NCBI RefSeq assembly: GCF_036174265.1
Contig: NZ_CP108055.1
Location: 3,658,001-3,722,000, forward strand
Source: Streptomyces sp. NBC_00285
Lineage (GTDB): Bacteria; Actinomycetota; Actinomycetes; Streptomycetales; Streptomycetaceae
Reading direction: 5' to 3'
DNA length: 64,000 bases
The notes below the pieces were generated by a model. That model saw nothing but the letters and a program-made list of their open reading frames with translations, did not search any database and had not been told where the DNA came from. The position numbers and the translations under genes are program-made. Shown in pieces: positions 1,620 to 59,508 of this stretch (position 1 is the first letter of the stretch; every line of letters begins with the position of its first letter).

Positions 1620-1632
1620 CTAAGTAACTTAG
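1620..1632. promoter_or_regulatory. CTAA-N5-TTAG palindrome, site 1
   Basis: The exact 13-bp palindrome extends to a perfect ACTAAGT-A-ACTTAGT inverted repeat (1619-1633) in an otherwise G+C-rich stretch. It lies 55 nt before an ATG at 1688 that has a strong GGAGGGGG ribosome site, and 170 nt before the methyltransferase start on the other strand. It is the most symmetrical member of the motif family described in the findings. The frame opening at 1688 (to 2275) has poor codon bias and no recognisable domain, so the original target gene may have decayed. Confidence 0.6.
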
Positions 1633-1938
1633 TTTTACCGGATGACGTGAGCGCGACACCCGACACGGGCGTGAATCGGAGGGGGAAATGAGCGGACATA
1701 GGGACGCTCACCCTTCAGCTGTTCACGCACACGGCACCCCCGATGGCGGCACACGCGTTCCACTGCCGACCGGATCCGCGGTAAGCGCGATTCCGGACGG
1801 CCGCAGCCCCCTTCCCGGCCGCGCCGCACCCCTTGCGCTTCCACAGCACCCCGGGCGCTTTCCTCTTGCCCGCCGCAGCAACATTCCGCACCTGAAGAAC
1901 CGACGCGCCACCCTCGCGGCGCGCCCAGGAGGCATCGC

Positions 1939-2109
1939 ATGCAGCCCCTCATCGACTACGCGCGGCCGTTCCGGCAGCGGACCGCAGCACGGCCCGAGAA
2001 GTTCGCGCGCCTTACCGAAGGCCAGGCGCCGCAGGCCCCGTTCACCACCCACTCCGACTCGCGGGTCATCCCCATCCCCGATCACCGTGCGCGCAAGTCG
2101 GAGAACTGA
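1939..2109 (+). pseudogene. Beta-carbonic anhydrase N-terminal remnant
   Basis: An ATG with AGGAGG six bases upstream opens a 56-codon frame starting MQPLIDYARPFRQR and reaching TTHSDSRVIP. Beta-carbonic anhydrases of Streptomyces start MQPLID.AR.F and then carry the zinc-binding ITCSDSRVVP motif. Here the zinc-ligand Cys reads His, and the frame ends after about 15 more codons where a base appears to have been lost (ATCACC-GTGCGCGC matches the expected ALITGAR codons in another frame). I infer a dead gene. The preceding bases from 1450 contain only palindrome site 1 and a low-quality open frame. Confidence 0.55.
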
Positions 2110-2437
2110 GGAGCCGACCGCACACCGCGCCAGGGCGCGCCCATCATCTGCCGACGAACTCACCCTTGCGACGCCGCACCATTCCGTGACCTGCGTCACA
2201 CCATCCGGCCGCCAAGACGCCGGGCTTGGCCACCGACTCCGGTCCAGGGTAAGGCGAGGGGCAATACGGACGTAACAACGAAGAGCCTTAGTAGAGGCCT
2301 TGCGCGTGGAGCCCCCAATGTCCGTTATGACGTCAATAAGGAGTGGCGCGCCGGGAATTCCGGGCCGCGGTTGAGTAAGTGTGGCGCACCCCACGTCCCT
2401 TGAAGATATGGAGGAGACCCTGATACCGGTTGTTCTC

Positions 2438-3268
2438 ATGTCCCACACCGCTCAGATACCAAGCCACAGGAAACCCGCCCGCAACACGTCGAGAATGGCA
2501 GTGAGGGCCGGAGTTGCCGGTGGCGTCCTCGGCGCCCTGGCAGTGGCTGGCGCGTCCGGCGCGGCGAACGCCGCCGAGCCGGTGACGCAGACCCTCGAAC
2601 TGCCCACGCTCACAGCCGACCTGGCCGCTCAGGTCGCGCAGTCCGCGGACGCCACCCAGCAGGCCGCGGCCAGCTACGAGCTGAGTGCCGAGCGTGACGC
2701 GGCCGCTGCCACGGCCGCCAAGCAGGCCAAGGCGAACCTCGCCCAGGCCAAGGCGAAGGCCGAAGCCGCGCGGAAGGCCGAGGCCGAACGCAAGAAGGCC
2801 GCCGCCTCACGCTCCTCCGAGCGGACCACACTGGCCTCGTCCGCCAGCACTGCCACCACCAGCACCACCAGCACCAGCACCAGCACCAGCACCTCCTCAT
2901 CCACGGCCAGCGGCTCGGCAGCCGCTGTCATCGCCTTCGCCAAGGCGCAGATAGGCGACGCCTACGTGCTCGGCGCCACAGGACCCAACTCCTGGGACTG
3001 CTCCAGCCTGCTCCAAGCCGCGTTCAAGCAGGCGGGCATCAGCCTCCCGAGGGTGTCGCAGGACCAGTCGACTGCGGGCACCCCGGTCTCGCTGAGCAAC
3101 CTCCAGCCGGGCGACATCCTCTACTGGGGCTCCGCGGGCAGCGGCGCCTACCACGTGGCGCTGTACGTCGGCGGCGGCAACTTCGTCGGAGCCGAGAACC
3201 CGTCCACGGGCATCGTCGAGAGGCCCCTCTCCTGGGACCCGCCGACCGGCGCGGTGCGCGTGCTCTGA
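2438..3268 (+). CDS. Secreted NlpC/P60 peptidoglycan endopeptidase
   Basis: From the ATG at 2438 the protein is 276 residues (MSHTAQIPSHRKP), a start I recall for Streptomyces homologues. An in-frame ATG at 2408 is the alternative, and neither has an ideal ribosome site. A signal peptide with AAVAGASGAANA cleavage is followed by an Ala/Lys-rich coiled coil (about 60-130), a Ser/Thr repeat linker (about 140-165) and a C-terminal NlpC/P60 domain. The catalytic Cys lies in SWDCSSL and the His in YHVALYVGGG. Such enzymes cleave the gamma-D-Glu-diamino-acid bond of wall stem peptides. The leader 2110-2437 holds only a CTTAGTAGA half-motif at 2285-2293 and no recognisable riboswitch. Confidence 0.88.
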   Translation: MSHTAQIPSHRKPARNTSRMAVRAGVAGGVLGALAVAGASGAANAAEPVTQTLELPTLTADLAAQVAQSADATQQAAASYELSAERDAAAATAAKQAKANLAQAKAKAEAARKAEAERKKAAASRSSERTTLASSASTATTSTTSTSTSTSTSSSTASGSAAAVIAFAKAQIGDAYVLGATGPNSWDCSSLLQAAFKQAGISLPRVSQDQSTAGTPVSLSNLQPGDILYWGSAGSGAYHVALYVGGGNFVGAENPSTGIVERPLSWDPPTGAVRVL

Positions 3269-3483
3269 CGCGCCGTGGCGTCGTAGAGGGCCGCTTTGCC
3301 CGGACAGGTCACTGGACGGGGAAGGTGGCCCTCGAGCTTGCCCGGCCCAGCTCGCCGGCGTCTCGCACAGCCAGTCGGCACCTCCGCCGACGGCATGCTT
3401 CAGCGGCTCCATCCCAGGCGACTCTTGCAGCCCCGGATCGCGATATTGCGGATGCGGGCCGCCCGGAACGCGGGGTACAGGTG

Positions 3484-3536
3484 CGCCGCCCGGACGGGCC
3501 CGCCCGAGAGGACTCGGCGGGCCCGTCCGGGCGGCG
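3484..3536. terminator. Bidirectional hairpin between NlpC/P60 and multicopper oxidase genes
   Basis: Two perfectly complementary 21-base arms (3484-3504 and 3516-3536) enclose an 11-base loop that can pair further. The hairpin sits 12 bases past the stop of the convergent multicopper oxidase gene and about 215 bases past the NlpC/P60 stop. Streptomyces terminators often lack a T-run, as here. The interval 3269-3483 shows no gene. Confidence 0.8.
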
Positions 3537-3547
3537 TGAGGCGAACG

Positions 3548-5179
3548 TCAGGCCTTGTAGGCCACGTTCGCCATCATCCCGGCCTCGCCGTGGTAGGCGT
3601 TGTGACAGTGCAGCATCCACTGGCCGGGGTTGTCGGCGTCGAGGAACACGGACACCGTCTTCTTCGGCAGGACGACCGCGGTGTCCTTGCGCGGGCCGGA
3701 GGCGCCGAGCTGGTACGTGTGGCCGTGCAGGTGCATCGGGTGCCACATCTCGGTCGTGTTGACGAAGTCGAGCCGTACCCGCTGGCCCTCCTCGATGAGG
3801 ATCGGATTCGCCTCGGGATGCATCATGTCGAACGACTTGTCGTTGATGGACCAGTTGTACTTCATCATGTTGCCGGTCAACTTGATCTGGTGCGTGACGT
3901 CGGTCTTCGCGGACTTGAGCCGCACGTCGTCGGCGGCCTGCAGCTGGGACGCCGTCATGATCATGCCGTCGAGTTCCTTCGGGCGGACAGTCGCGGACGG
4001 TTTGCTCCCGGAGCCCGTGCGCACGAGCGCCAGGCCGTTCGCGTTCTTGCCCTCGGCCAGGGCGACGAGCGGGAAGACCCCATTGCCGAGGGTGACGAGG
4101 ACGTCGTACCGCTCCCCCATGCCGACCAGCAGGGCGTCCACCTCCTGGTGCTGGACCGGGAAGCCGTCGGTGTGGGTGATCGTCAGCTTGTGGCCGCCGA
4201 GGGCAACCCGGTAGGCAGTGTCCGAGCCGGCGTTGATGATCCGCAGGCGCACCTTCTTGCCGGGCTTGCCGGTGTAGACGTCGGGGTCGGCCGCTACCCG
4301 GCCGTTGATGAGGTGGTGCGGGTACTTCACGTCGCCGGCGTCACCGCCGAGCAGCTTGCTGGTGGCGCCCGTGAGCATGAACTTCTTGGACATGTCGCCG
4401 GAGGCGGAGGCCGAGGCCGACGGGGAGGCGGAGCCGCCCATGTCCATCCCGCCCATGTCCCCCATGCCGGTATCCGAACTGCTGGGGCTCGGGCTGCTGC
4501 CCATGTCCATGCCGCTCATGTCACCCATGTCGGCCATGCCACGCTTGAGTTCGGCGAAGGCGTCGTCGGGTGTGCCGGTGACTCCGTCGAGCCAGTCGTC
4601 GAGGAGGACGACCCACTCGTCGTCGTACGACAGCGGCTCCTTGGGGTCCTCGACGATCAGCGGGGCGTACAGGCCGCGGTCGAGCTGGACGCCGACGTGC
4701 GGGTGGAAGAAGTACGTGCCGGGGTCGGGGGTGATGAAGCTGTAGGTGAAGGTGGAGCCGGCCCGCACGGCGGTTTGGACGGCGGGCGGTACGCCGTCCA
4801 TGTCGTTGCGCAGTGCGATGCCGTGCCAGTGGATCGACGTGGTGGTCTTGTTCGGGAGCTGGTTGGACAGCTCGGCGACGAGAGTGTCACCGGCGGAGAG
4901 CCGGACCTCCTTGCCGGGGGTCCGGCCGTCGAAGGCCCAGGTTTTGGGCATGACCCCGGCGCCCAGGTCGATCATCGCGGGCGCCGCGGTCAGGGTGACC
5001 TTCTTCCGCCGTCCCGTGGCTTTGCGCTTCATATCGGCGGCGGTGACGGCCGAGGCGGTGGGGCTGACCAGAGCGCTACCGCCGCCGGAGCCGGAACCAC
5101 TGCTACAGGCAGCGAGTGCGCCCGCTCCGGCGACTCCCAGGCCGGTGAGCAGGACGGAGCGTCGGTTGAAGCTGTTCAT
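3548..5179 (-). CDS. Tat-exported multicopper oxidase lipoprotein
   Basis: This 543-residue protein starts at an ATG with GAGGACA upstream. The N-terminus has a Tat-like NRRSVLLTG signal and a lipobox (LAAC), so it is probably anchored outside the membrane. All copper motifs are present: HWHG, HPH, HPMHLHGH and HCHNAYHGEAGM, the set that builds the type 1 and trinuclear sites. A Met/His-rich loop around 220-260 (repeats of MGDMSGMDM) resembles the loop that gives CueO-type oxidases cuprous oxidase activity. A role in copper detoxification by Cu(I) oxidation is likely. It follows a small Met/His-rich membrane protein gene by 75 bases, and both lie behind a CsoR-type operator at 5741-5755. Confidence 0.93.
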   Translation of the reverse strand: MNSFNRRSVLLTGLGVAGAGALAACSSGSGSGGGSALVSPTASAVTAADMKRKATGRRKKVTLTAAPAMIDLGAGVMPKTWAFDGRTPGKEVRLSAGDTLVAELSNQLPNKTTTSIHWHGIALRNDMDGVPPAVQTAVRAGSTFTYSFITPDPGTYFFHPHVGVQLDRGLYAPLIVEDPKEPLSYDDEWVVLLDDWLDGVTGTPDDAFAELKRGMADMGDMSGMDMGSSPSPSSSDTGMGDMGGMDMGGSASPSASASASGDMSKKFMLTGATSKLLGGDAGDVKYPHHLINGRVAADPDVYTGKPGKKVRLRIINAGSDTAYRVALGGHKLTITHTDGFPVQHQEVDALLVGMGERYDVLVTLGNGVFPLVALAEGKNANGLALVRTGSGSKPSATVRPKELDGMIMTASQLQAADDVRLKSAKTDVTHQIKLTGNMMKYNWSINDKSFDMMHPEANPILIEEGQRVRLDFVNTTEMWHPMHLHGHTYQLGASGPRKDTAVVLPKKTVSVFLDADNPGQWMLHCHNAYHGEAGMMANVAYKA

Positions 5180-5254
5180 TACGTTGTGTCCTCTGTCTCG
5201 AAACTGCCGATGTGGTCACGGAAGGACGGCACATCGCGCGCCGTCCGGCGCGGC

Positions 5255-5740: not shown

Positions 5741-5755
5741 TACCCCCAGGGGGTA
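5741..5755. promoter_or_regulatory. CsoR-type operator before the multicopper oxidase operon
   Basis: TACCCCCAGGGGGTA is a perfect palindrome and matches the established CsoR/RcnR-family copper operator of actinobacteria. It lies 46 bases upstream of the 5695 start codon on the minus strand, where it could block the promoter until Cu(I) releases the repressor. A CsoR gene is present at 52002-52322. Confidence 0.85.
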
Positions 5756-5942
5756 CCAGGATGCTCGCCCTTACACTCGCGTCTCGGAATCACCCGTAGC
5801 GATATCGCCTTGCATGGAAAGACCAGCGAGACTACGAAAACCACTAGTAGCTACGGGAGGAGTCTGCCACACGCCGCAATCGCACCGGCGGCGCCCCCGA
5901 CACGCGGGAACCGAAAGGGTCCGCCGATCGTCTACGAAAATA

Positions 5943-5955
5943 CTTAGATCATTAG
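5943..5955. promoter_or_regulatory. CTTA-N5-TTAG site before the L,D-transpeptidase
   Basis: This is one mismatch from the exact palindrome (CTTA for CTAA in the left arm, TTAG intact). It lies 20 bases before the L,D-transpeptidase ATG, in an AT-rich pocket. The right half, ATTAGGTAA, is shared with the sites at 56529 and 41324. The stretch 5756-5942 holds no gene. Confidence 0.55.
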
Positions 5956-5974: not shown

Positions 5975-7189
5975 ATGGGACAGCGCCTGACAGCACGGCC
6001 GGTTCGCCGGTCCGCGCGATCGCTCGCGCTCGCCTCGGCCGCCGTCGTCCTCGCCGCATGCAGCTCCGGCGGCGGCAAGGCGGACAGCGGCTCGGACACG
6101 GCAGTCGGCGACAGCAAGAACGGCGGACCTGCCGCGATAGCCGTGACTCCCGGCGACGGCGACGCGAAGGTGCCGGTCAGCCGGAAGGTGACGGTGCACG
6201 CCCAGGGCGGCTCCCTCTCCACCGTCGCGGTCACCTCCCCCGGCCCCGGCAAGCTCGCCGGCACCTGGTCGAAGGACAAGTCCGTGTGGACCTCCACGAC
6301 ACCACTCGCCCCGGGCGCCAGCTACACGGTGACGGCCAATGGCAAGGCGTCTGGCGGATCCGCCCTCAACAAGACCGCCTCCTTCACCACCGAGGCGGCC
6401 AAGAACAGCTTCGTCGGCGAGTACTACCCCGACAAGGGCACGAAGGTCGGCGTCGCGATGCCGGTCTCGATCACCTTCAACAAGCCGATCAGCAACAAGG
6501 CGGCGGTGGAACGGAAGCTCAAGGTCACCGCGTCCCCCGCGATTGAGGGCTCCTGGAGCTGGATGAAGGACCGCGACGGCAAGGACCGCGTCGACTACCG
6601 CCCCGAGAGGTACTGGAAGACCGGCACGGACGTAACCCTGCGCATGGACCTCGCGGGCGTGGACGCGGGCGGCGGTGTGTACGGCACCCAGCAGCGCGTC
6701 GTGAACTTCCGTATAGGCGACGCCGTGACCAGCACCGTCGACGTCAACAAGAAGACCATGACGGTCGCGAAGAACGGCCGGACGCTCCGGACCCTGAAGG
6801 TCTCGTCCGGCAAGAAGGGCTACGAAACCTGGAACGGCACGATGGTCGTCCTGAGCAAGGTACCGACCATCCGCATGAACTCCTCGACCGTCGGCATATT
6901 CGGCCCCGAGGCGTACAACCTCGGCTCGGTGAAGTGGGACGTCCAGCTCACCCCGTCCGGCACGTACGTCCACGCGGCGCCGTGGAACGCGGGCAAGTTC
7001 GGCGTCGTCAACGGCAGCCACGGCTGCATCGGTATGAGTACGAGTGACGCCAAGTGGTTCTTCAGCCAAGTCAACCTCGGCGACCCCGTCACGGTCGTCC
7101 ACTCCGTCGACACCGTGGCGGTCAACAACGGCTACGGCGACTGGAACGTCGACTGGACCACCTGGACGAAGGGGAGCGCCCTGAGCTGA
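5975..7189 (+). CDS. L,D-transpeptidase lipoprotein
   Basis: The protein is 404 residues and the ATG is preceded by GAAGAGGGAG. The signal peptide ends in the lipobox LAAC at about 28, so it is anchored to the outer face of the membrane. Two Ig-like domains (about 50-145 and 150-245) precede a YkuD catalytic domain (about 250-375) with the active-site motif SHGCIGM (His, Gly, Cys). This is the usual actinobacterial LdtMt2-like architecture and length. It makes 3-3 crosslinks in peptidoglycan and can confer beta-lactam tolerance. It is preceded by a palindrome-family operator and followed by a CsoR-type site that serves the next gene. Confidence 0.93.
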   Translation: MGQRLTARPVRRSARSLALASAAVVLAACSSGGGKADSGSDTAVGDSKNGGPAAIAVTPGDGDAKVPVSRKVTVHAQGGSLSTVAVTSPGPGKLAGTWSKDKSVWTSTTPLAPGASYTVTANGKASGGSALNKTASFTTEAAKNSFVGEYYPDKGTKVGVAMPVSITFNKPISNKAAVERKLKVTASPAIEGSWSWMKDRDGKDRVDYRPERYWKTGTDVTLRMDLAGVDAGGGVYGTQQRVVNFRIGDAVTSTVDVNKKTMTVAKNGRTLRTLKVSSGKKGYETWNGTMVVLSKVPTIRMNSSTVGIFGPEAYNLGSVKWDVQLTPSGTYVHAAPWNAGKFGVVNGSHGCIGMSTSDAKWFFSQVNLGDPVTVVHSVDTVAVNNGYGDWNVDWTTWTKGSALS

Positions 7190-7203: not shown

Positions 7204-7222
7204 TATACCCCCAGGGGGTATA
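7204..7222. promoter_or_regulatory. CsoR-type operator before the 476-aa membrane protein
   Basis: TATACCCCCAGGGGGTATA is a perfect 9-1-9 palindrome, 46 bases before the next ATG, the same spacing as at the multicopper oxidase operon. It is the best copy of the copper operator in the window. Confidence 0.88.
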
Positions 7223-8715: not shown

Positions 8716-8728
8716 CGTAGTAGATTAG
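8716..8728. promoter_or_regulatory. CGTA-N5-TTAG site before the M23 peptidase
   Basis: TAGTAGATTAGTA is shared almost base for base with the reverse complements of the lgt site (59496) and the tlpA site (56529). One arm carries a single change (CGTA). It is 16 bases past the stop of the preceding gene and 72 bases before the M23 start. TAGTAT at its right edge could serve as a -10 box. Confidence 0.55.
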
Positions 8729-8762: not shown

Positions 8763-8793
8763 GCCAAAGGGCAGTCGCCGCTTGCCCTTTGGC
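8763..8793 (+). promoter_or_regulatory. Leader hairpin before the M23 peptidase start
   Basis: GCCAAAGGGCA (8763-8773) and TGCCCTTTGGC (8783-8793) form a perfect 11-bp stem with a 9-base loop. It lies between the palindrome site and the first plausible start codons. It is not followed by a T-run and lies upstream of the gene it precedes, so an RNA leader structure or protein-binding site is more likely than a terminator. Confidence 0.5.
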
Positions 8794-8800
8794 TGCCCAG

Positions 8801-10066
8801 GTGAAAGAGAAGGTGCTGGTGGACGACCGTCATGCGTCGGGTTTCCCGCCTCCGGCAGCCCCCGTTTCCGATACCCCGCACCCCGCATGGCCGCAGAACC
8901 CCTCACGGGAAGTCCCGTTGGAGCCCTACGGCAAACCCCACGTCGGCTATGGCGACGCGGACCCGCTATTCGGTGCCCTGCCTGGCGCGTACGACACCGG
9001 TGTGTGTGATGAGCAATTCGCCCACCACGTGTGGTGGTACGAGAACGATGGACACGAAACGGCCCCGCAGTGGCAGGCGACCGGCCACGGGATCGACCCC
9101 AACGGCGAGTGGTACCCGGGGTTTTCCCAGGCGGCCCCTGCCGACTCCGAGGCGTTCGACGTGCACAACGCCTCCGCCCTCGCTGATCTCCGCTTCGCTC
9201 CCGGCCAGGCACCAGCAGACCAAGCACCATGGCCCGATGAGCCAACCGCGCACCAGAACCGGTCCGAAGCCGAGCCCACCCCCAGCACTCCCCCGGACCC
9301 GCCGACGACGCGCCGCCCAGGCGGCCGTGGTCGCCGCGCGCCACGCCGAGGATCCGCGTTTCTGACAGTCGTCGCCCCCTCGATCGCGTTCGTAGGTATG
9401 GCCGGGATCGCCGCCGCCTCCGTCGGACTCAGCGAGAACGGCAGGAACGTGCAGGCCGCGCCCGAACCGACTGTCCAACCCTCCGCAGCCAACGACGAGT
9501 TCGACACCCAGCTCAGCACACTCAGCCGGGAAGCCGACGATTTCGCCGACCGCGCGAGCCGTACGCAGCAACGCGTCGACCTTGAACAGCGCCGACGTGA
9601 GGAGCAGAAGCTCCGGGAGGCCGACGCCGCGAGCAAGAAGGCTGAGGCGGCCCGCAAGGAGGCGCTTCGCCCGAAGTTCGCACTCCCCGTCGCGCAGAAG
9701 GGAGTCGGCGAGCTGTTCGGAGCGGTCGGATCCATGTGGTCGAATCGGCACACCGGACTCGACTTCCCGGTGTCGATGTACACGCCAGTGATGGCGGTGA
9801 CCGACGGTACGGTCGTGGCCAAGTGGAATCCGTCCTACGGGAACATCGTCGAAGTGACGGCCGCCGACGGCACACAGACCTGGTACGCCCATCTGGCCAG
9901 CGCGCGGATCCGCTCCGGCTACGTCAAGGCCGGGACCGTCATCGGTTACGCCGGCAGCTCCGGCAACTCGTCGGGCCCTCACCTCCATCTGGAGGTTCAC
10001 CCAGGCGGTGGCGCCCCCGTGGATCCGCTGGCGTGGCTGCGCACTCACGGCCTCGACCCGACGTAG
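8801..10066 (+). CDS. Membrane-anchored M23 (LytM) peptidase
   Basis: The start is uncertain. GTG 8801 lies just past the leader hairpin, TTG 8789 lies inside it, and GTG 8819 has the best ribosome site (AGAAGG). A hydrophilic cytoplasmic N-terminus of about 185 residues, rich in Pro, His and Trp, precedes one membrane helix (about 188-210), a coiled coil (about 235-285) and a C-terminal M23 domain. Zinc ligands are visible as HTGLDF and HLHLEVH, with YAHL between. M23 enzymes cut peptide crossbridges in peptidoglycan or act as activators when degenerate, but the motifs here look intact. The operator and hairpin upstream suggest control shared with the L,D-transpeptidase. Confidence 0.85.
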   Translation: MKEKVLVDDRHASGFPPPAAPVSDTPHPAWPQNPSREVPLEPYGKPHVGYGDADPLFGALPGAYDTGVCDEQFAHHVWWYENDGHETAPQWQATGHGIDPNGEWYPGFSQAAPADSEAFDVHNASALADLRFAPGQAPADQAPWPDEPTAHQNRSEAEPTPSTPPDPPTTRRPGGRGRRAPRRGSAFLTVVAPSIAFVGMAGIAAASVGLSENGRNVQAAPEPTVQPSAANDEFDTQLSTLSREADDFADRASRTQQRVDLEQRRREEQKLREADAASKKAEAARKEALRPKFALPVAQKGVGELFGAVGSMWSNRHTGLDFPVSMYTPVMAVTDGTVVAKWNPSYGNIVEVTAADGTQTWYAHLASARIRSGYVKAGTVIGYAGSSGNSSGPHLHLEVHPGGGAPVDPLAWLRTHGLDPT

Positions 10067-41271: not shown

Positions 41272-41323
41272 GATCGTGTTTCCTTCGTAGGGCGTCATCA
41301 CTTTCGACCACCCTACTAGGCAA

Positions 41324-41336
41324 CTAAGGTTCTTAG
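41324..41336. promoter_or_regulatory. CTAA-N5-TTAG palindrome before the BNR protein
   Basis: This is an exact copy of the palindrome (spacer GGTTC) followed by GTAT, 53 bases before the BNR-protein ATG on the minus strand. A CTACTAGGC half-site sits just beside it (41314-41322). Confidence 0.65.
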
Positions 41337-43633: not shown

Positions 43634-43646
43634 CTAAGAGCCTTAG
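43634..43646. promoter_or_regulatory. CTAA-N5-TTAG palindrome before the 43703 membrane protein
   Basis: An exact copy (spacer GAGCC), 57 bases before the ATG at 43703. A TAATAAT tract about 25 bases downstream could be the -10 box, which would put the palindrome over the -35 region. Confidence 0.62.
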
Positions 43647-43702: not shown

Positions 43703-44200
43703 ATGCCAGATCGTGATGCTCTGATTACGATCAGTGGCATGCCGCAGGAATACGTCGGCTGCGCATCGGCGCGCAGGCCGACTCTCGTCCTCCTCCTGGG
43801 TGTGGCCATGACCCTCATGGCGCACCTGGTGGCATGCGGCGTGCACGCCACGGAGGACCATCGGCCCGCGGTGACGGCCTCGACGGAGAGGGGGCAGCAC
43901 GGCGTCGACGCCCTCCCCCTTGCCGCTGCCGATCTGGCATGCTCAGCGACCGACGCGGGCGACGGGAATCCGGATCACGACGTGCTGTGCTGCGGCCCGG
44001 CCCACGTACTCGCGTATCTGCCCGCGCCCATCGGGGCGATGCTCCTGGCACTCCTGCTCCTCGTTCTCCTCCCCTTGCGTCACCGCTCGCAGGAGGCGAC
44101 GGCGTCCGGCACACCGCCAGGGCCCGAGGAAACACCCGAGGCGCGGCGGATCCTCACCGGGTCCAGCCTTCTGCGCATCGTCTGCGTCAGCCGTACCTGA
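43703..44200 (+). CDS. Cys/His-containing membrane protein, unknown function
   Basis: The start is ATG 43703 (165 aa) or ATG 43739 (153 aa), neither with a good ribosome site. A helix (about 26-45, LVLLLGVAMTLMAHLVACGVH) and a second helix (about 105-130) flank an exported loop with HATEDH, DLACSATD and DHDVLCCGPAH. The layout of one early helix followed by Cys/His loops is like the small protein in the multicopper oxidase operon, so a metal-related role is possible. It lies behind an exact palindrome site. Confidence 0.6.
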   Translation: MPDRDALITISGMPQEYVGCASARRPTLVLLLGVAMTLMAHLVACGVHATEDHRPAVTASTERGQHGVDALPLAAADLACSATDAGDGNPDHDVLCCGPAHVLAYLPAPIGAMLLALLLLVLLPLRHRSQEATASGTPPGPEETPEARRILTGSSLLRIVCVSRT

Positions 44201-46952: not shown

Positions 46953-46965
46953 CTAAGTAGATAGA
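46953..46965. promoter_or_regulatory. Degenerate CTAA-N5-TTAG site before copZ
   Basis: CTAAGTAGATAGA: the left arm and spacer match the lgt/tlpA copies, the right arm is degenerate. The core CTACTAAGTAG is itself an 11-base palindrome. It lies 55 bases before the CsoR operator and 157 bases before copZ, so the copZA promoter region carries both signals. Confidence 0.5.
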
Positions 46966-47019: not shown

Positions 47020-47036
47020 ATACCCCTAGGGGGTAT
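47020..47036. promoter_or_regulatory. CsoR-type operator before copZA
   Basis: ATACCCCTAGGGGGTAT matches the copper operator consensus and lies 86 bases before the copZ ATG. Confidence 0.88.
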
Positions 47037-47121: not shown

Positions 47122-47415
47122 ATGACCACCGAGACGAACTCCACCTCCTGCTGCGGCGGCGGTTCCTGCGGTTCCGACGCCACGGTCGACGTCCACGGCC
47201 TCGGCGTCACCACCGTCTACAAGGTGTCGGGCATGACCTGCGGCCACTGCGAGGGCGCCGTCTCCCAGGAGATCTCCGCCCTGGACGGGGTCAGCGCGGT
47301 CACGGCCGTCGCCAAGACCGGCGAGGTCGCCGTCACCTCTGCCGCTCCGCTCGACGAGGAGGCCGTCCGTGCCGCCGTCGACGAGGCCGGCTACGAGCTC
47401 GTCGGCCAGGCCTGA
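47122..47415 (+). CDS. copZ: Copper chaperone CopZ
   Basis: The start ATG 47122 has GGAGGAAG upstream, giving 97 residues. A heavy-metal-associated domain (about 32-97) carries the Cu(I) site GMTCGHC. A Cys-rich extension precedes it (TSCCGGGSCGS), so extra Cu(I) could be bound. The protein carries Cu(I) to CopA and can load CsoR. copA follows after 112 bases. Confidence 0.95.
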   Translation: MTTETNSTSCCGGGSCGSDATVDVHGLGVTTVYKVSGMTCGHCEGAVSQEISALDGVSAVTAVAKTGEVAVTSAAPLDEEAVRAAVDEAGYELVGQA

Positions 47416-47527
47416 CGACCCCTCCGGGGCACCTGGTCCCGGATACGCGAATTCCTCCCCGCGCCGGGATGTACCGCTCCGCTGATACGGACGCCGTACG
47501 TCCCGGCCTCCCCCTGGAGATACGTCC

Positions 47528-49807
<2,280 letters not shown>

Positions 49808-51139: not shown

Positions 51140-51603
51140 TCCTCTTCCTGCTGCCCCCATCAGGCAGGCTTGGCATAGTCGTCCGCGTACGCAATGGTGC
51201 GCGAGTTCGGGAGGGCTGGCACTGGATGTCTCCCCTGCCGAAGTGCCGGAGTATGCGTGCACGGGCAGGCTCCTTGGAGGACGTGTCCATGCCTCCCCTG
51301 CCCGTGCGCGCGGTTGGTGGGACTACCTCGGGTCGGAGTTGACCGCCTACTGCCTCACCAGTCGACGCTCCGCTCGCGGCAGCCGCCCTGACGCCGCGCT
51401 GCTGCGGGCCCGCCGCTACCAGAACCCGGCGGCGGACGACGCAGCAGCGCGGCTCGATGGGGGCACGTCCCATCCTTTTCACACCCCGAAATACTAACCT
51501 GCTTAATTGGTTCGTGCATCCCTGTTCGCCCCAGCCCCAACCCTTGCCCGCCGGTCACGTCACTCAGCGGGCGCGGGCACGAGGCGGCCGACGCCGCCCA
51601 ACC

Positions 51604-52002
51604 GCAGCGTCGGCCCGAGTTGATGCAGTTGACCGCCTGCTGCATGAGCTGGTCACTCATGACGTTGATGAACTCGGCGTGGTCGGTGACCGGTACGTAC
51701 TGCCGGCCGGGGAAGGAGTCCACGGCGAACTTGTACCGGTTCGGCGGGGTGAAGGTCAGCCGCTCAGTCAGCCGCGATACGGCTTGGAAGCCGTTCGGAC
51801 AGGCGCCGGTGTTCGGATCGGCGTTCACGATATGCGAGCGGTGGTCGGCGCTGTCGATGTTCCTGCCGTCCCCGCAACCGGAGAAGGCGAAGCTGCGGAC
51901 GACCTTGCCGCCGGTCGGACAGATCGAGCACTCGTCCTTCACCTGAACCTTGCTCTCGAAACCGGCGCAGGACCAGTGGTACACCAAGCCCCAACTCGAC
52001 AT
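51604..52002 (-). pseudogene. DUF1996 C-terminal remnant joined to csoR
   Basis: From an ATG that overlaps the csoR stop (TGATG), 133 codons encode the end of a DUF1996 protein: CPNGFQAVSRLTERLTF, FAVDSFPGRQYVPVTDHAEF, then INVMSDQL and AVNCINSGRRC. Full-length members are secreted proteins of more than 300 residues with a signal peptide, both missing here. The frame continues to 51355 without family resemblance. A deletion seems to have fused the tail to csoR. It could still be translated, but without export it is unlikely to function. Confidence 0.6.
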
Positions 52003-52322
52003 CACGTGCGCAGCAGGCGCGCGATGGCCTTCGAAGCCTCGGTGACCTTTTCCTGAGCCACGTCGCCTCCGGCCACCATGGCCTCGCGCACACAATGATC
52101 CAGATGTTTCTCCAGCAGCTCCATGGCCACCGCCTGGAGGCCCTTGGTGGTCGCCGCGACCTGGGTGAGTACGTCGATGCAGTATTGATCTTCCTGCACA
52201 AGGCGCTGCAGGCCACGTACCTGACCCTCGATGCGACGGAGCCGCTTGAGGACGGCTTCCTTGTCGTCGTGATATCCCGGCGGCGCCTGCTCGGCTTCGG
52301 TTTGCTGCTGCAGTTGCTCCAT
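52002..52322 (-). CDS. csoR: CsoR-family Cu(I)-sensing repressor
   Basis: The protein is 106 residues from ATG 52322. The all-helical fold has RLRRIEGQVRGLQRLV and the Cu(I) ligands Cys (EDQYCIDVLTQ), His and Cys (EKHLDHC), the C-H-C set that defines CsoR. It binds GC-rich palindromes and leaves DNA on Cu(I) binding. The window holds four matching operators, including one over its own start codon. It presumably controls copZA, the multicopper oxidase operon and the 476-aa membrane protein. Confidence 0.94.
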   Translation of the reverse strand: MEQLQQQTEAEQAPPGYHDDKEAVLKRLRRIEGQVRGLQRLVQEDQYCIDVLTQVAATTKGLQAVAMELLEKHLDHCVREAMVAGGDVAQEKVTEASKAIARLLRT

Positions 52323-52337
52323 ACCCCCCAAGGGTAT
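52321..52337. promoter_or_regulatory. CsoR-type operator overlapping the csoR start codon
   Basis: ATACCCCCCAAGGGTAT is an imperfect copper operator that includes two bases of the csoR ATG on the minus strand. It probably mediates autoregulation. The overlap implies a leaderless or very short-leader transcript, or a start codon different from the one chosen. Confidence 0.78.
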
Positions 52338-52543: not shown

Positions 52544-52556
52544 CTAAGTACCTTCG
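52544..52556. promoter_or_regulatory. Degenerate CTAA-N5-TTCG site before the LVIVD protein
   Basis: CTAA, five bases, then TTCG (one change from TTAG) in an AT-rich pocket, 76 bases before the start of the secreted LVIVD protein. It is a weak member of the motif family. Confidence 0.35.
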
Positions 52557-52631: not shown

Positions 52632-54491
52632 ATGCGCAGAGCCCACAGACGGACCGGCGTGGGCATGTTCGCGGCGGCTCTCTTCGCCACGACCGCTCTC
52701 GCCGGTTCCGCACAAGCACATGACGGCGTCTCGGCATCCGACGGCGCCATCGACAACGCCGCAGCCACCCACGGCCACGACCAGCACGGCGGCAGCGGAG
52801 GACACCTGCCGGCCACTCAGAAAAACGTCCGCCTGGTCAGCAAACTCAAGCTGAGCAACGTCGTAGAGGGGAAGATCGCCGACGTAGGCGTTTTCAAGGG
52901 CTTCGCCTACCTCGCCTCCTGGGGCGGCGTCGGCTGCGACAACACCGGCGTGCACGTCGTCGACATCCGCAAGCCCAGCAAGCCCAAGGAGGTCGGCTTC
53001 ATCCCGGCCCCGGCGGGCAGTGCCCCCGGTGAGGGCATCCAGACAATGCACCTGTCCACGCCGTCCTTCAACGGTGACGTACTCGTCAGCAACAACGAGA
53101 TCTGCGGCGACGCCGGCGTCGGAGGCATGAACATCTACGACGTCACCGATCCCACCAAGCCCAAGACGCTCGCCGAGGGCGTCGGCGACTTCACCCTCAA
53201 CGGCGAGCCGACGGAGATCGCCCGCCAGATCCACAGCGTGTTCGCGTGGGACGCGGGGCGCAAGGCGTACGCCGTGCTCGTCGACAACGAAGAGGGCACC
53301 GACGTCGACATCATGGACATCACCGACCCGTCCAAGCCGCAACTCGTCGCCGAGTACGACCTCGCCGAGACCTTCCCGCAGATCGTCCAGGCGGCCCCGG
53401 AAAACCTCACCGAGATCTTCCTGCACGACATGGTCGTCAAGAACATCCACGGCCGCCAGGTCATGCTGGCCTCGTACTGGGACGCCGGCTATGTCGCGCT
53501 CGACGTGACCGACCCCAAGAACATCAAGTACATCGGCGACACCGACTTCACCAATCCCGACCCCGAAGGCGCCAAGAGGGGACGGACCGTGGCGCCGGAA
53601 GGCAACGGCCACGAGGCGGAGTTCACCCTCGACAACCGGTATGTGATCGGCGCCGACGAGGACTTCGGACCGTACGCGCTGTCGGCTCGCAACCTCGACG
53701 ACGACACCACCATCACCGCCGGTCAGGGCATCCCCCTGGAGGCGGGCAAGACCATCACCGGCGGCTCGGTCTACGTCGGCCTGGCGTGCGACGGCGGCCC
53801 CGCCGTCCCCGCGGGCGACCCGACAACGGTCGACATCGCGGTCGTGGAGCGCGGCACGTGCACCTTCACCGAGAAGGTCGCCAACGTCGAGGCCTCGGGT
53901 GGCTACGACGCCGTGCTCGTCTTCAACCGCACTGGCTCGGACGCCTGCGACGCGCAAAGCGGCATGAGCGTCGAGGGCACCATACCGACCTTCGGCGTCG
54001 CCCCGCGAAGCCAGGGCTTCGCCGTCTTCAACCAGCCCTACAGCAGCGAGGATTGCCTCGCCGGCACCGGCCCAGCGACCCTTCCGGTGGACATCGGTAC
54101 GAAGGGCGACCGGCTCACCTTCTCCTCGCACTTCGACGGCTGGGGCTACGCGCACCTCTTCCGCAACAAGAGCGGCAAGATGACCGAGTTGGACACCTAC
54201 GCCATCCCGGAGGGCCAAGATCCTGCGTACGCCACCGGCTTCGGCGACCTGACGGTCCACGAGGTGGCAACTTCCGGCGTCCGCCCCGACCTGGCGTACT
54301 TCGCCTACTACGCGGGCGGTTTCCGAGTCACGAAGATCAAGAACCACAAGCTCGTCGAGGTCGGCCGCTTCATCGACGAGGGCGGCAACAACTTCTGGGG
54401 CGTACAGACCTTCAACTCCTCCGGAAAGGAGTACGTGGCGGCGTCCGACCGCGACTTCGGGCTCTACATCTTCGAGTACACCGGTCGCTGA
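52632..54491 (+). CDS. Secreted LVIVD-repeat protein with PA-like insert
   Basis: The ATG at 52632 has GGAGG eight bases upstream. A GTG at 52620 would bury it. The protein has 619 residues: a signal peptide ending SAQAHD, a His-rich mature start (HGHDQHGGSGGH), LVIVD repeats (VHVVDIRKPSKPKEVGFI, MNIYDVTDPTKPKTL, VDIMDITDPSKPQLV, VALDVTDPKNIKYIG) that form a propeller, and a PA-like segment (about 375-460, VVERGTCTFTEKV). It is probably extracellular. The function is unknown. The N-terminal His cluster and position next to csoR fit metal binding. Confidence 0.85.
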   Translation: MRRAHRRTGVGMFAAALFATTALAGSAQAHDGVSASDGAIDNAAATHGHDQHGGSGGHLPATQKNVRLVSKLKLSNVVEGKIADVGVFKGFAYLASWGGVGCDNTGVHVVDIRKPSKPKEVGFIPAPAGSAPGEGIQTMHLSTPSFNGDVLVSNNEICGDAGVGGMNIYDVTDPTKPKTLAEGVGDFTLNGEPTEIARQIHSVFAWDAGRKAYAVLVDNEEGTDVDIMDITDPSKPQLVAEYDLAETFPQIVQAAPENLTEIFLHDMVVKNIHGRQVMLASYWDAGYVALDVTDPKNIKYIGDTDFTNPDPEGAKRGRTVAPEGNGHEAEFTLDNRYVIGADEDFGPYALSARNLDDDTTITAGQGIPLEAGKTITGGSVYVGLACDGGPAVPAGDPTTVDIAVVERGTCTFTEKVANVEASGGYDAVLVFNRTGSDACDAQSGMSVEGTIPTFGVAPRSQGFAVFNQPYSSEDCLAGTGPATLPVDIGTKGDRLTFSSHFDGWGYAHLFRNKSGKMTELDTYAIPEGQDPAYATGFGDLTVHEVATSGVRPDLAYFAYYAGGFRVTKIKNHKLVEVGRFIDEGGNNFWGVQTFNSSGKEYVAASDRDFGLYIFEYTGR

Positions 54492-55902: not shown

Positions 55903-55915
55903 CTAAGTTGTACAG
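55903..55915. promoter_or_regulatory. Half-site of the CTAA-N5-TTAG family before the 54983 methyltransferase
   Basis: AACTAAGTTGTACAG: the left arm CTAA is intact, the right arm is ACAG. An AGTAGTT follows. It is AT-rich against the local background and lies 39 bases before the methyltransferase start. Low support alone. Confidence 0.3.
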
Positions 55916-55971
55916 TAGTTAAGCCTACTTTGATCGGTCATATCCTCCGTTCTGCGATGGCCCTCGCTTCC

Positions 55972-56301: not shown

Positions 56302-56528
56302 TGCCGACTCTCCGGCCGCGGGGACACCGCGACCACCTCCACCGATGACACCACCCCGCACGCACACAGCCGTCAGCGACTTACCAACATCACCAGCAGA
56401 GTCACGGCATTGCCCCTGCGGGTATCGGACGACAACGATGGAGCCCCTGTCTCGAGGCCTCGGAGGCCTGCGCATCGCCTTTGAGCAACCTTGCGGGACC
56501 CCGGGTCAAAGTCATTCGAGGGGCTTAC

Positions 56529-56541
56529 CTAATCTACTTAG
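56529..56541. promoter_or_regulatory. CTAA-N5-TTAG palindrome before tlpA-ccdA
   Basis: ACCTAATCTACTTAGAAG contains an exact copy (spacer TCTAC, the same as at lgt), 36 bases before the TlpA-like start. Confidence 0.68.
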
Positions 56542-56577
56542 AAGCTTCTGACCAAGCCGCCGGCGAAGGAGACAGCC

Positions 56578-57264
56578 GTGGCCCCCTCGGCACCCCACAC
56601 ACAATCCGCCCCCACAGGACCGCCGACGAATCGGGTCGCCGACCGGGCACGGGCCCCGCGACGGGCAGCGGGCCTGGTCGCGGCTTCTCTGCTGTTGGCC
56701 GCATGCGGGACGGGCACGACATCCGGTTCATCCGGCTCGCCGGGCGCCAAGAACGCGGCCGGCTCCAGCAGCCAGCAGGCACTCACCCAGTACCCGGCAC
56801 GCAAGCGGTCCACGACTCCGATGATCAGCGGCAGGACGATCAACGGCGACCGCCTCGACCTCGCCACCCTGCACGGCAAGGTGATCGTGCTCAACGTCTG
56901 GGGCTCCTGGTGCGCACCGTGCCGCGCCGAGGCCCCCGATCTGAACAAAGCCTCCGCCGAGACGCGCGACCTCGGAGTGCGGTTCGTCGGCGTCGACACA
57001 CGCGACAACGACGCCGCGGCCAGAGCCTTCGAGCGGAACTACGGCATCACGTATCCCAGCTTCCGTGACCCCGACGGCAAGTTGCTCCTGGGCTTCAACG
57101 GCCGCATTCCGCTGTCGGCGGTCCCCAGCACCGTGTTCATCGACCGCGACGGGCGGATCGCCGCCCGGATCATCGGCCCGACCACGTACACAACGCTGAG
57201 CGAGCTGGTGAAGGGCCTCGCCGCGGAGAAGTCGGAGAAGAACGGCGGAGGTGCGGCCAAGTGA
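56578..57264 (+). CDS. TlpA/ResA-like thiol-disulfide lipoprotein
   Basis: The GTG at 56578 has GAAGGAG upstream, giving 228 residues. A signal peptide ends in the lipobox LLAAC (about 43). The thioredoxin-like domain (about 75-225) has the active site WGSWCAPCRAE and the cis-Pro region AVPSTVFID. Such proteins reduce disulfides or metal-site cysteines outside the membrane. It is coupled to the ccdA gene (GTGA overlap), its expected electron source. An exact palindrome site lies just upstream. Confidence 0.92.
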   Translation: MAPSAPHTQSAPTGPPTNRVADRARAPRRAAGLVAASLLLAACGTGTTSGSSGSPGAKNAAGSSSQQALTQYPARKRSTTPMISGRTINGDRLDLATLHGKVIVLNVWGSWCAPCRAEAPDLNKASAETRDLGVRFVGVDTRDNDAAARAFERNYGITYPSFRDPDGKLLLGFNGRIPLSAVPSTVFIDRDGRIAARIIGPTTYTTLSELVKGLAAEKSEKNGGGAAK

Positions 57265-58034
57265 CGCTCGCCGCCGGCGTCGGGCAAACGGTCATGGCCG
57301 GTCCGCTCGCCCTCGCTCTCCTCCTGGCGCTCGCCGCCGGAGCCCTTTCCTTCTTCTCTCCCTGCTGCCTGCCCCTGGTCCCGGGTTATCTCTCCTACGT
57401 TGCCGGGATGTCCGGCGCCGGCGCCGCCGAGACGGCGAGGCGAGCCGCCCGGTGGCGGGTCCTGGCCGGATGCCTGCTCTTCGTGGTCGGTTTCGCTGCC
57501 GTCTTCACCAGCTACGGCGCGCTGTTCGGCGGCGCGGGCGCGGCACTGCTGACGCACCAGCGCACGCTCGGCATCGTGCTGGGCTCGCTGACCATCGTGC
57601 TGGGCCTGGTCTTCGCCGGTCTGCTCGACAAGCTGCCGTGGGCCGGGTTCAGTTGGCGGCCCTCCTTCCGGCCCGGCGCGGGGCTTGCGGGCGCGCCGCT
57701 GCTCGGCGCCCTCTTTGCGATCGGCTGGACACCGTGTATCGGCCCCACCCTCGCGGCGGTCCTGTCCCTGGCCGCCGACAGCGCGAGCGCGGGCCGCGGG
57801 GCCGCCTTGTCGTTCACGTACAGCCTCGGCCTCGGCATTCCGTTCCTGCTCGCGGCGGCATCGTTCGACGGTGCGATGCGGCGCTTCACCTGGGCCCGGC
57901 GGCACGCACGAGCCGTGATGCGCTTCGGCGGAGTGCTGCTGGTGGGGGTGGGCGCCATGCAGGTGACCGGCTGGTGGGGGCAGCTGATCGCCCGACTGCA
58001 GACGCTGATCACCGGGTTCCATCTGCCTCTGTGA
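57261..58034 (+). CDS. ccdA: CcdA-type thiol electron carrier
   Basis: The protein is 257 residues with about seven membrane helices. The two redox Cys are in SFFSPCCLPLVPGYLSY and IGWTPCIGPTL, the defining pair of CcdA/DsbD-beta. It carries reducing power from cytoplasmic thioredoxin to extracytoplasmic partners, here almost certainly the TlpA-like lipoprotein encoded just before it. CcdA-TlpA pairs support cytochrome c maturation or copper-site assembly. Confidence 0.93.
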   Translation: MTLAAGVGQTVMAGPLALALLLALAAGALSFFSPCCLPLVPGYLSYVAGMSGAGAAETARRAARWRVLAGCLLFVVGFAAVFTSYGALFGGAGAALLTHQRTLGIVLGSLTIVLGLVFAGLLDKLPWAGFSWRPSFRPGAGLAGAPLLGALFAIGWTPCIGPTLAAVLSLAADSASAGRGAALSFTYSLGLGIPFLLAAASFDGAMRRFTWARRHARAVMRFGGVLLVGVGAMQVTGWWGQLIARLQTLITGFHLPL

Positions 58035-58080
58035 GCCTTGCGTCTCCTACCCGGGGCTGGCACCAACTCGCCCAAATAAT

Positions 58081-58093
58081 CTAAATTACTTAG
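58081..58093. promoter_or_regulatory. CTAA-N5-TTAG palindrome before two small membrane proteins
   Basis: An exact copy (spacer ATTAC) followed directly by TAGATAGGT, which shares the extended TTAGTAGAT of other sites. It is 55 bases before the ATG at 58148. Confidence 0.68.
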
Positions 58094-58147
58094 TAGATAG
58101 GTCATTGCCGGGCTCCACGCGCGGCTGGCGCCCACCGGGAGGTCCCC

Positions 58148-58348
58148 ATGCCCCAGTCCCTGTATCCACTGCTTCTCCTGGCCTGCCCGATCGGCATGGG
58201 TCTGATGATGTGGGCCATGCTGCGCGGGGGCTCGCACTCGTCGCGGCCAGCCGACCCGACACGGAACGAGCTCGCCGAACTGCGCCAGGAACTCGCCGAG
58301 CTACGCACCACCGCCCAGAAGGACATCCGCCAGCCCTTGCGGAACTGA
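58148..58348 (+). CDS. Small membrane protein with cytoplasmic coiled coil
   Basis: The protein has 66 residues and GGAGG lies seven bases before the ATG. One helix (about 5-26, LYPLLLLACPIGMGLMMWAML) contains Cys and several Met. It is followed by a charged heptad-like tail (ELAELRQELAELRTTAQKD). I do not recognise a family. The Met/Cys-rich helix and the operator suggest a link to copper or redox stress. Confidence 0.7.
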   Translation: MPQSLYPLLLLACPIGMGLMMWAMLRGGSHSSRPADPTRNELAELRQELAELRTTAQKDIRQPLRN

Positions 58349-58367
58349 GCCAGAGACCCACAGCCCC

Positions 58368-58646
58368 TTGGCCGCGACGGCAGTAATGATCGCCGCACTG
58401 CTCTGCGCCGCCACGCTCTACGACACAACGCGCCTGATCACCCCGCACCATGCCCGCCGACCTCCCTTCACCCGACTTCGAGGACGGCGCGCGGCCCTGG
58501 AGGCCGAGGAGCGGTGGTGCACGGACCTCCTTCTGCGCGGCCGGATCGACAGACGCTCCTACCAGCAGCGCATGAGCGCACTCGCCCGCGGGAACCGCGC
58601 CACCCGACCCCACCGCGGCGGACGGTCAGGCCGCCATTGCTACTAA
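58368..58646 (+). CDS. Small membrane protein with SHOCT-like tail
   Basis: The reading frame opens at TTG 58368, and ATG 58386 is the alternative. It has up to 92 residues: one N-terminal helix, then an Arg-rich stretch and ERWCTDLLLRGRIDRRSYQQRMSAL, which resembles the SHOCT motif (LLxxGxIxxxEYxxxxxxL) of short C-terminal oligomerisation tails. It is probably co-transcribed with the preceding small gene. The next palindrome site overlaps its stop codon. Confidence 0.6.
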   Translation: MAATAVMIAALLCAATLYDTTRLITPHHARRPPFTRLRGRRAALEAEERWCTDLLLRGRIDRRSYQQRMSALARGNRATRPHRGGRSGRHCY

Positions 58647-58655
58647 GGCCATTAG
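58643..58655. promoter_or_regulatory. CTAA-N5-TTAG palindrome overlapping a stop codon
   Basis: An exact copy (spacer GGCCA). Its TAA is the stop of the preceding small gene. It is 102 bases before the next start (58757). Confidence 0.6.
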
Positions 58656-58756
58656 CAATCTAGGATGGCGGCCAGCCGCCGACCGGGGGCCGACCAAAGG
58701 CGCCCCCCCGTCGCCAGGCCTGCCGGTCGGCGGCCCGATCACGAGGAGTGAGCCCC

Positions 58757-59212
58757 ATGCGCACCTGGCCCGCCAGAAGATGGGCCGTGGCGACAGCGGT
58801 CACGGTGCTCGCGGCACTCGTCATCGGCGTCCCCACCGGAGTGGTGCCGACCCCCGTCTACACACGCATGACCCCGGTCCTGTGGTGGAACTACCCGGTC
58901 TGGCTGGTCAGCTCCGCACTTGAGGGACTCCTCGTGGCCACGTACGTACGCATCGGCGCGGCCGAAGCCCCCGAGACCGCGCCGCGCGAACGCCCCCGCA
59001 CCACTCGCGCCATCGGCGCGGGCCTGCTGTCCGCCTTCGCGGTCGGCTGCCCGATCTGCAACAAGATCGTGGTATTGGCCATCGGCGTCAGCGGCGCCCT
59101 GTCGTACTTCGCGCCGGTACAGCCCGTACTCGCGCTGGCGTCCGTCGCCCTGCTGGTCCACGCGCTCGTGCGACGGCTGCGTACCGCGAACGTCTGCCGA
59201 GTTCCTTCGTGA
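58757..59212 (+). CDS. Four-helix membrane protein with CPIC motif
   Basis: The ATG at 58757 has GAGGAG eight bases upstream, giving 151 residues. About four helices are predicted. The conserved-looking part is AVGCPICNKIVVLAIGVSGAL, a CxxC pair at the membrane surface, and YFAPVQPVLALASVALL. I do not recognise a named family. CxxC in membrane proteins of this size suggests thiol redox or metal handling, in line with the neighbouring CcdA-TlpA and Lgt genes. The stretch 59213-59495 shows no gene. Confidence 0.7.
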   Translation: MRTWPARRWAVATAVTVLAALVIGVPTGVVPTPVYTRMTPVLWWNYPVWLVSSALEGLLVATYVRIGAAEAPETAPRERPRTTRAIGAGLLSAFAVGCPICNKIVVLAIGVSGALSYFAPVQPVLALASVALLVHALVRRLRTANVCRVPS

Positions 59213-59495
59213 GGATTGGCCCCCGCCTCACCGCGCGCCGCGGCGCGACATTCGCCCTGCTCCTGGGCAACCACCGCCACTGCCGATCCTGGCGGTCCGA
59301 GGGTGGCGCCCCAGGTCCACCCTCACCGTGATACATGCGCCCTGGCCCTCCGCTCTCGCCGCGCGGCTGCTACCTCGCCCGACGGCCGGGGCCGCCGGCA
59401 CCCGTCGGTCCCGCCCTGCCCCTGGGACGCATCCGCCACCCCGGCGTCCGCGTGGAGGTATCCGCCGACCGTCCCGAGCAATGACCCATCATTTA

Positions 59496-59508
59496 CTAAT
59501 CTACTTAG
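59496..59508. promoter_or_regulatory. CTAA-N5-TTAG palindrome and promoter of lgt
   Basis: TACTAATCTACTTAGC contains an exact copy. TATAGT at 59519-59524 is a good -10 hexamer and lies 6 bases before the ATG at 59531, so transcription would start at or near the start codon. The palindrome then covers the -35 region and spacer, the classical place for a repressor. Confidence 0.72.

Follow-up and report, generated by a model that had tools for sequence, protein, structure and literature searches.

A repeated palindrome as a likely operator of BlaI-type repressors in a copper and envelope gene stretch of Streptomyces

Copies of a 13 bp palindrome, CTAA-N5-TTAG, lie in front of copper, thiol-redox and cell envelope genes in a 64,000-nucleotide stretch of the chromosome of Streptomyces sp. 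NBC_00285 (the window in what follows; positions 3658001–3722000 of the 10.3 Mb source genome, G000). Many promoters in a larger copper/envelope stretch of ~105 kb around the window carry the palindrome, which is probably the operator of the BlaI-type repressors encoded there, each paired with a membrane metalloprotease predicted to inactivate it. This reading draws on the clustering of the copies, their intergenic placement, the site before blaI-1 (one of the repressor genes), conservation before orthologues and co-occurrence in other families; gene calls and gene starts are mechanical throughout. The original prediction, made from the window alone, had proposed one repressor linking wall crosslinking, lipoprotein maturation, thiol redox and copper export and, taken as a whole, is partly supported.

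Clustering and intergenic placement

Exact copies of the palindrome are found at window positions 1620, 41324, 43634, 56529, 58081, 58643 and 59496, all previously listed, and nowhere else in the window, where a mean of 0.01 is expected from 100 dinucleotide shuffles. Across G000 there are 14 exact copies (five for a reversed-pattern control), nine of which fall within the 105 kb between 3.622 and 3.728 Mb, with a binomial probability of ~2e-15 that assumes uniform placement and applies to an interval picked post hoc. The shuffles and the reversed-pattern control exclude a chance or compositional artefact, in keeping with the earlier claim that the copies exceed chance. A genome-wide regulon is also ruled out, since the five copies beyond the stretch equal the five of the control. 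The region from 3.618 to 3.732 Mb is 79% coding, yet each of its 18 copies with no more than one mismatch falls outside the called genes, so the motif is not equally common inside genes; the reversed control gives no exact copies here and six with at most one mismatch. The five degenerate copies reported previously are present with one (5943 and 52544), two (8716 and 55903) or three (46953) mismatches, and three further copies with one mismatch (2279, 5935 and 51494) had been overlooked. A sample of 120 other Streptomyces genomes has a median of two exact copies per genome (mean 2.2, maximum 11); the only one with at least nine, G324, carries blaI-1 with its site.

Two other observations concern similar sequences. 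The site CTAAAAGCTTTAG at genome position 1454619 (L034:10019) has a TetR-family gene on one side and an FBP_C gene on the other, its 13 bases being found also in the Streptomyces genomes G048, G040 and G275; it is probably an unrelated operator with the same eight bases. Paired CTAAC-N3-GTTAG palindromes, spaced by ~20–35 bp, occur in three other Streptomyces genomes (G371, G324 and G009) and form a different repeated site family.

Two BlaI-type repressors and their partner proteases

The original prediction found no BlaI/MecI/CopY gene in the window and a PF03965 scan is consistent with this: there are eight matches in G000, two of them inside the stretch and upstream of the window, by 35 and 14 kb. 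The first, blaI-1 (3622771–3623142), is followed by the gene for a 325 amino acid membrane metalloprotease and the second, blaI-2 (3643617–3643991), by that for a 303 amino acid membrane metalloprotease; the winged-helix domains of BlaI-1 and BlaI-2 score 89.7 and 78.7 bits, respectively (Pfam cut-off 22.6). A site with one mismatch, CTAGGCGGCTTAG, lies 49 nt before the blaI-1 start and an exact copy separates the blaI-1 protease gene from an operon encoding two small proteins and CopC-CopD. The suggested link to the BlaI/MecI/CopY family is thus upheld by two such genes, and the proposed search for a BlaI-family gene beside a membrane protease and with a site of its own leads to blaI-1. The resemblance drawn to TACTAC..GTAGTA operator arms is partial only.

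Upstream of blaI-1, the sequence CCTAG-N5-TTAGG is found in all 11 aligned loci, with AT next in ten. These loci come from G000, from six further genomes in three genera, one genome having two copies, and from three Streptomyces plasmids (pFRL6, S. mirabilis pI and one of S. liliifuscus). The TAGGAT within the right arm of the site may be a −10 element. BlaI-1 is present at 58% identity or more in at least seven of 297 family genomes, as well as on plasmids, and because its occurrence is patchy the stretch can be termed an island.

Neither BlaI-1 nor BlaI-2 contains cysteine. The partner of BlaI-1 (protease-1, 325 amino acids) has an HExxH motif and a BlaR1-like fold, with the last modelled helix at residues 278–309; no beta-lactam-binding or sensor domain was found in it, the protein ending soon after that helix. 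A plain Foldseek search with the protease model gave no match at E < 0.001, BlaR1 being third; after realignment of the matches BlaR1 ranked first. All 60 aligned relatives, which were drawn from the best 120 of 608 matches, keep Cys75, Cys152 and Cys312 of the protease. In the protease-1 model Cys75 lies in a short helix (68–84) and Cys312 in a low-confidence tail past the last helix.

The proposal of a single repressor is unlikely to be correct, because there are two BlaI–protease pairs here, a third BlaI in the related genome G107 and two operator subtypes (see below). The third pair in G107 (L074:16092–17350) is divergent from a BNR gene with an exact site between them; at the corresponding place G000 retains the operator (41324) and has no PF03965 match. 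A MerR-type gene adjoins blaI-2 in G000.

Conservation in related genomes

Most genes of the stretch are present in the related genomes G107 and G275, mostly at 75–95% protein identity and without the biosynthetic cluster found in G000. Eleven of the 13 exact copies in G107 fall in this stretch, whilst in G275 a single contig holds 17 of the 19 within 124 kb, and 12 of these 17 fall where it aligns to G000. Conservation in other strains, on which the original prediction had made its case depend, is found: most sites are kept before orthologues. Those before blaI-1 and the NlpC/P60 (one base weaker in G275), LVIVD, tlpA, CPIC and lgt genes are kept in both genomes, and those before CopC-CopD and the Lipoprotein_15, L,D-transpeptidase, BNR, small membrane protein and g121 genes in G107. 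Not kept are the 1620 site before a methyltransferase gene and, in G107, the M23 site and the csoR-side site. Across 13 sites compared between G000 and G107 (one of them misaligned and counted as is), 96 of 104 fixed bases, 50 of 65 central bases and 819 of 1236 positions in the 60 bp flanks are identical; for G275 the corresponding counts are 50 of 56, 23 of 35 and 463 of 747. In G094 and G055, from another genus of the family, Lgt is 75–76% identical and the site still stands 35 nt before lgt.

Co-occurrence with BlaI-1 relatives beyond Streptomyces

Relatives of BlaI-1 were collected by a scan with a seven-sequence alignment; 80 of 110 loci were kept, 34 of which were listed singly. The 34 are from Streptomyces, Flexivirga, Actinoallomurus, Nonomuraea, Nocardiopsis, Saccharopolyspora and Amycolatopsis, and some belong to genomes counted elsewhere in this analysis (G275, G324, G132, G055 as L151–L152, and G094). 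Within their 506 kb there are 36 exact motifs against two matches to the reversed control, and the remaining 46 loci have 13 against one. An exact motif lies 1336–1421 nt past the blaI start, approximately at the end of the protease gene, in ten of the 34 loci and an unmismatched CTAD-N5-HTAG lies 10–140 nt upstream of blaI in 23. A tblastn tally of neighbours, which returned blaI-2 in 80 of 80 blaI-1 loci, is not meaningful because the two repressors cross-match.

Two operator subtypes

Among 30 distinct sites linked to blaI-1 relatives, 20 have C on the left and 25 have G on the right. Examination of 40 blaI-2-type protease genes, at loci that overlap or run only part-length, identified eight distinct unmismatched sites up to 200 nt behind the gene, each flanked by TA to the left and T to the right, together with eight further distinct one-mismatch sites, four of which have A and T flanks. 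We read these as two subtypes, CCTAA-N5-TTAGG for BlaI-1 and TACKAA-N5-TTMGTA for BlaI-2, and the split in the flanks weakens the notion of one operator for one repressor. The latter form was rejected as a genome marker: it has 15 matches in 43 genomes, with none for the control, and G000 itself has none. Of these 15, ten are next to a blaI-2 gene, are within or adjoin the stretch, or share a contig with genes of the stretch; the other five are not so placed. Among the matches listed, CCTAD-N5-HTAGG clusters near blaI-1 in G055 (6/6), G005 (7/8) and G132 (3/5). Within the window, four of the seven exact sites are TA-flanked on the left and G stands on the right at 41324 only.

Sites and genes in the window

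For most sites the original prediction assigned the gene correctly (YkuD L,D-transpeptidase, M23, BNR, CopZA, LVIVD-type, TlpA-CcdA and Lgt). The exact site at 1620–1632, with TA on its left, has behind it only a beta-carbonic anhydrase remnant (1939–2109) and one open reading frame without a Pfam match; the remnant is truncated, a longer copy (Pfam Pro_CA) being present in G107. A one-mismatch site (2279–2291) lies 102 nt before the start (2381) of the NlpC/P60 (C40) cell-wall peptidase gene (2381–3268, +) and occupies the same alignment position in G107 and in G275. Beyond a multicopper oxidase gene (3548–5179, −) lie a CsoR-type box, TACCCCCAGGGGGTA (5741–5755), and an operator-like sequence, TACGAAAACCACTAGTA (5833–5849), with one mismatch to TACTA-N7-TAGTA and an aligned copy in G107, 142 nt before the L,D-transpeptidase gene (Big_10 and YkuD; 5975–7189, +). 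Two overlapping operators, each with one mismatch (5935–5955), also precede this gene; in G107 the first is kept and the second is weaker. A further CsoR-type box (7206–7220) precedes the gene at 7269 (476 amino acids, no Pfam match), and a degenerate operator with two mismatches (8716–8728) is found upstream of the M23 peptidase gene (8789–10066), with an aligned copy in G275 and none in G107.

The biosynthetic cluster (~10494–40175) interrupts the copper/envelope stretch at this point; G107 has no cluster here, and its copZA comes within 4 kb after the M23 peptidase gene. The exact site at 41324–41336 lies 26 nt before the gene for a BNR/sortilin-like beta-propeller protein (40297–41298, −) and that at 43634–43646 lies 105 nt before a small open reading frame (43739–44200) with no Pfam family. 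Before the copper chaperone and P-type ATPase genes copZ-copA (47122–49807, +) are a decayed operator with three mismatches (46953–46965) and a CsoR-type box (47021–47035). The decayed copy looks real, because in G107 an exact copy stands at the identical distance of 169 nt from the called copZ start; the G275 copy is exact too. No convincing gene was found behind the one-mismatch site at 51494. The csoR/ricR-like copper repressor gene (52002–52322, −), whose product scores 127.8 bits with the RicR model (cut-off 175), has a CsoR-type box at its start (52322–52336), and a one-mismatch operator (52544–52556), its fixed bases identical in G107 and G275, precedes the gene for an LVIVD/PA-domain protein (52632–54491, +).

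The remaining exact sites follow in quick succession. That at 56529–56541 lies 49 nt before the thiol-redox pair tlpA-ccdA (56578–58034, +) and that at 58081–58093 precedes the gene for a small membrane protein (58148–58348, +) resembling the one before CopC-CopD (g25). The site at 58643–58655, present as a variant in G094, is 114 nt before the CPIC membrane protein gene (58757–59212, +), whose G094 relative matches MerT below the Pfam cut-off. Finally, the site at 59496–59508 is 35 nt before the prolipoprotein diacylglyceryl transferase gene lgt (59531–60394, +), with the same spacing in G107, G275, G094 and G055. In G000 this site would occupy the −35 position of a TATAGT promoter, and lgt may be leaderless because only six bases separate the TATAGT hexamer from the ATG. 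A cupredoxin-like protein is encoded at 60756–61184 (+). Genes for complex I subunits (chains 3, 6, 4L and antiporter-type) run from 61326 to the window end at 64000 and on to genome position 3727891, near cupredoxin and lgt; they are perhaps a second nuo set. Further genes of the stretch encode CopC-CopD, DUF305 and DUF3105 proteins.

CsoR boxes and the copper link

Exact boxes of the form TACCC-N5-GGGTA, matching the S. lividans CsoR consensus ATATACCCCTNAGGGGTATAT in the available text of the source (PMC3902906), are found at window positions 5741, 7206, 47021 and 52322 and at genome position 3643273, before copZ′–blaI-2–protease; these are five of the eight exact boxes in the genome (reversed control, five). 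A looser 14-base form has a match with one mismatch at 56411. The regulation looks dual, BlaI-type and CsoR, because some promoters bear this second box. Four Streptomyces genomes (L121–L124), chosen for having a full TACKAA-N5-TTMGTA site, have the order copZ-copA-csoR-blaI-2-protease-site, with a CsoR-type box ~67–73 bp before blaI-2 in L121–L123 and not in L124.

Copper or thiol stress appears the likelier signal, because the BlaI proteins lack cysteine, protease-1 lacks a sensor and the stretch has no beta-lactamase or penicillin-binding protein match: none of the six genome matches to beta-lactamase2, nor of the 11 to transpeptidase, lies at 3.62–3.73 Mb.

A proposed mechanism and its rivals

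In unstressed cells, BlaI dimers would lie over the −35/−10 region of blaI-1, copCD, tlpA-ccdA, lgt and the genes for wall enzymes and membrane proteins. The partner protease would become active when copper or thiol stress reaches the envelope and, much like staphylococcal BlaR1 but minus the beta-lactam sensor, would cleave BlaI and so release the whole set. CsoR would supply a second, cytoplasmic Cu(I) input at copZA, csoR, the multicopper oxidase/transpeptidase region and the copZ′–blaI-2–protease operon. BlaI-1 would favour CCTAA-N5-TTAGG and BlaI-2 TACKAA-N5-TTMGTA; a given window site may be served by either one. More speculatively, and with rather low probability, the sensor-free protease might sense through the extracytoplasmic pair Cys75/Cys312 of the model, which TlpA-CcdA would reduce and copper or disulfide stress would alter; this single outward-facing switch would release copper efflux together with thiol repair, the maturation of lipoproteins and the remodelling of the wall, atop cytoplasmic CsoR.

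Several points weigh against a BlaI-type operator set answering to copper. The copper signal is read from gene content; many blaI-1 relatives (in Nonomuraea, Nocardiopsis and Actinoallomurus) have no G000-type copper genes within 8 kb, and one blaI-2 locus (L130) has no copZA alongside. According to the accessible text of one study, cosmids carrying copYZ of S. mirabilis pI left nickel and copper tolerance unchanged, and expression of copY was lower under nickel, that copY having another locus tag, SMIR_41155 (PMC9195940). The copZA site is decayed in G000, and eight of the 34 blaI-1-type loci lack a recognisable upstream site (three others have one with one mismatch). Assignment of the subtypes suffers from the few sites obtained from 40 blaI-2-type genes, from the four of eight one-mismatch sites without A/T flanks and from several window sites with mixed flanks; totals of CCTAD-N5-HTAGG (0–8 per genome) were rejected as diagnostic of blaI-1. 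Lastly, the TetR-family/FBP_C copy shows that the eight core bases are not specific to BlaI, and all five exact copies beyond the 105 kb stretch are intergenic too.

It is unlikely, in our view, that the palindrome is a BlaI-type operator answering to wall damage or beta-lactams, with the copper genes as passengers of the stretch. Predicted targets do include wall enzymes (YkuD, NlpC/P60, M23 and, in G107, VanW) and BlaI/BlaR1 classically serve beta-lactam sensing, as the available text of PMC9834060 describes; however, the early end of protease-1, the lack of local beta-lactamase2 or transpeptidase matches, the position of blaI-2 after copZ-copA-csoR in four Streptomyces genomes and the CsoR boxes before blaI-2 in three of these and before copZ′–blaI-2 in G000 all speak against it. 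Less probable still is that CsoR alone governs the copper genes, the palindromes merely modulating minor envelope genes. Exact CsoR-type boxes do stand before copZA and csoR, the copZA BlaI-type site is decayed in G000, and tlpA may be a CsoR target too because in G107 an exact box lies 62 nt before its palindrome. Yet CopC-CopD, tlpA-ccdA, lgt and blaI-1 have BlaI-type sites and, allowing one mismatch, no CsoR box in G000, and both G107 and G275 carry an exact copZA site. That another regulator (TetR- or MerR-type) binds the sites, their proximity to blaI being coincidental, is very improbable, since the TetR-family/FBP_C copy and the MerR-type neighbour of blaI-2 are set against a site before blaI-1 in every one of 11 loci, which span three genera and include plasmids, and enrichment of the motif near blaI-1 relatives of other families.

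Relation to known systems

The predicted BlaI-type system resembles BlaI-BlaR1 and MecI-MecR1 of Staphylococcus, as described in the available text of PMC9834060, in pairing a PF03965 repressor with an HExxH membrane metalloprotease of BlaR1-like fold and in having a site before the repressor gene. It differs in lacking a beta-lactam sensor domain and any beta-lactamase or penicillin-binding protein match in the stretch, in its 13 bp, odd-centred operator and in its many predicted targets. CopY has a cysteine metal site, whereas BlaI-1 and BlaI-2 have no cysteine and here a protease is the partner; BlaI-1 scores 29.5 bits with the NCBIfam CopY_TcrY equivalog, under the cut-off of 121.95. CopY/CopR belong to the same Pfam family and copper efflux genes are among the predicted targets here. 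In the accessible text of PMC7253601 the CopY/CopR operator is given as RNYKACANNTGTMRNY, and the CopY operator TACANNTGTA is not matched by the blaI-linked sites CCTAA-N5-TTAGG and TACKAA-N5-TTMGTA. The closest solved sequence to BlaI is 2g9w (E 5e-20), which we take to be Rv1846c, the M. tuberculosis BlaI. A paper on the regulon and crystal structure of that protein is cited in the literature; its operator was not found in the literature text consulted. The Streptomyces CsoR regulon, as far as the available text of PMC3902906 describes it, shares its type of box with copZA and csoR in the window; the BlaI-type set has a separate operator and protein, with overlap at some promoters. Among the matches listed from the open-licence literature (titles and the beginnings of abstracts), no description of this operator or regulon in Streptomyces was found.

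Beta-lactam resistance (BlaI/MecI) and copper efflux (CopY) are the settings in which BlaI-type repressors are mainly known. In the present case a conserved operator would link a BlaI–protease pair, with no cysteine in the repressor and no drug-sensor domain, to a copper/envelope programme of many genes in Streptomyces, and the same motif ties in plasmid-borne relatives and those of other actinobacterial families. This gives a concrete operator for asking what sensor-domain-free M56-type proteases detect and for what reason lgt, TlpA-CcdA and wall enzymes accompany copper resistance.

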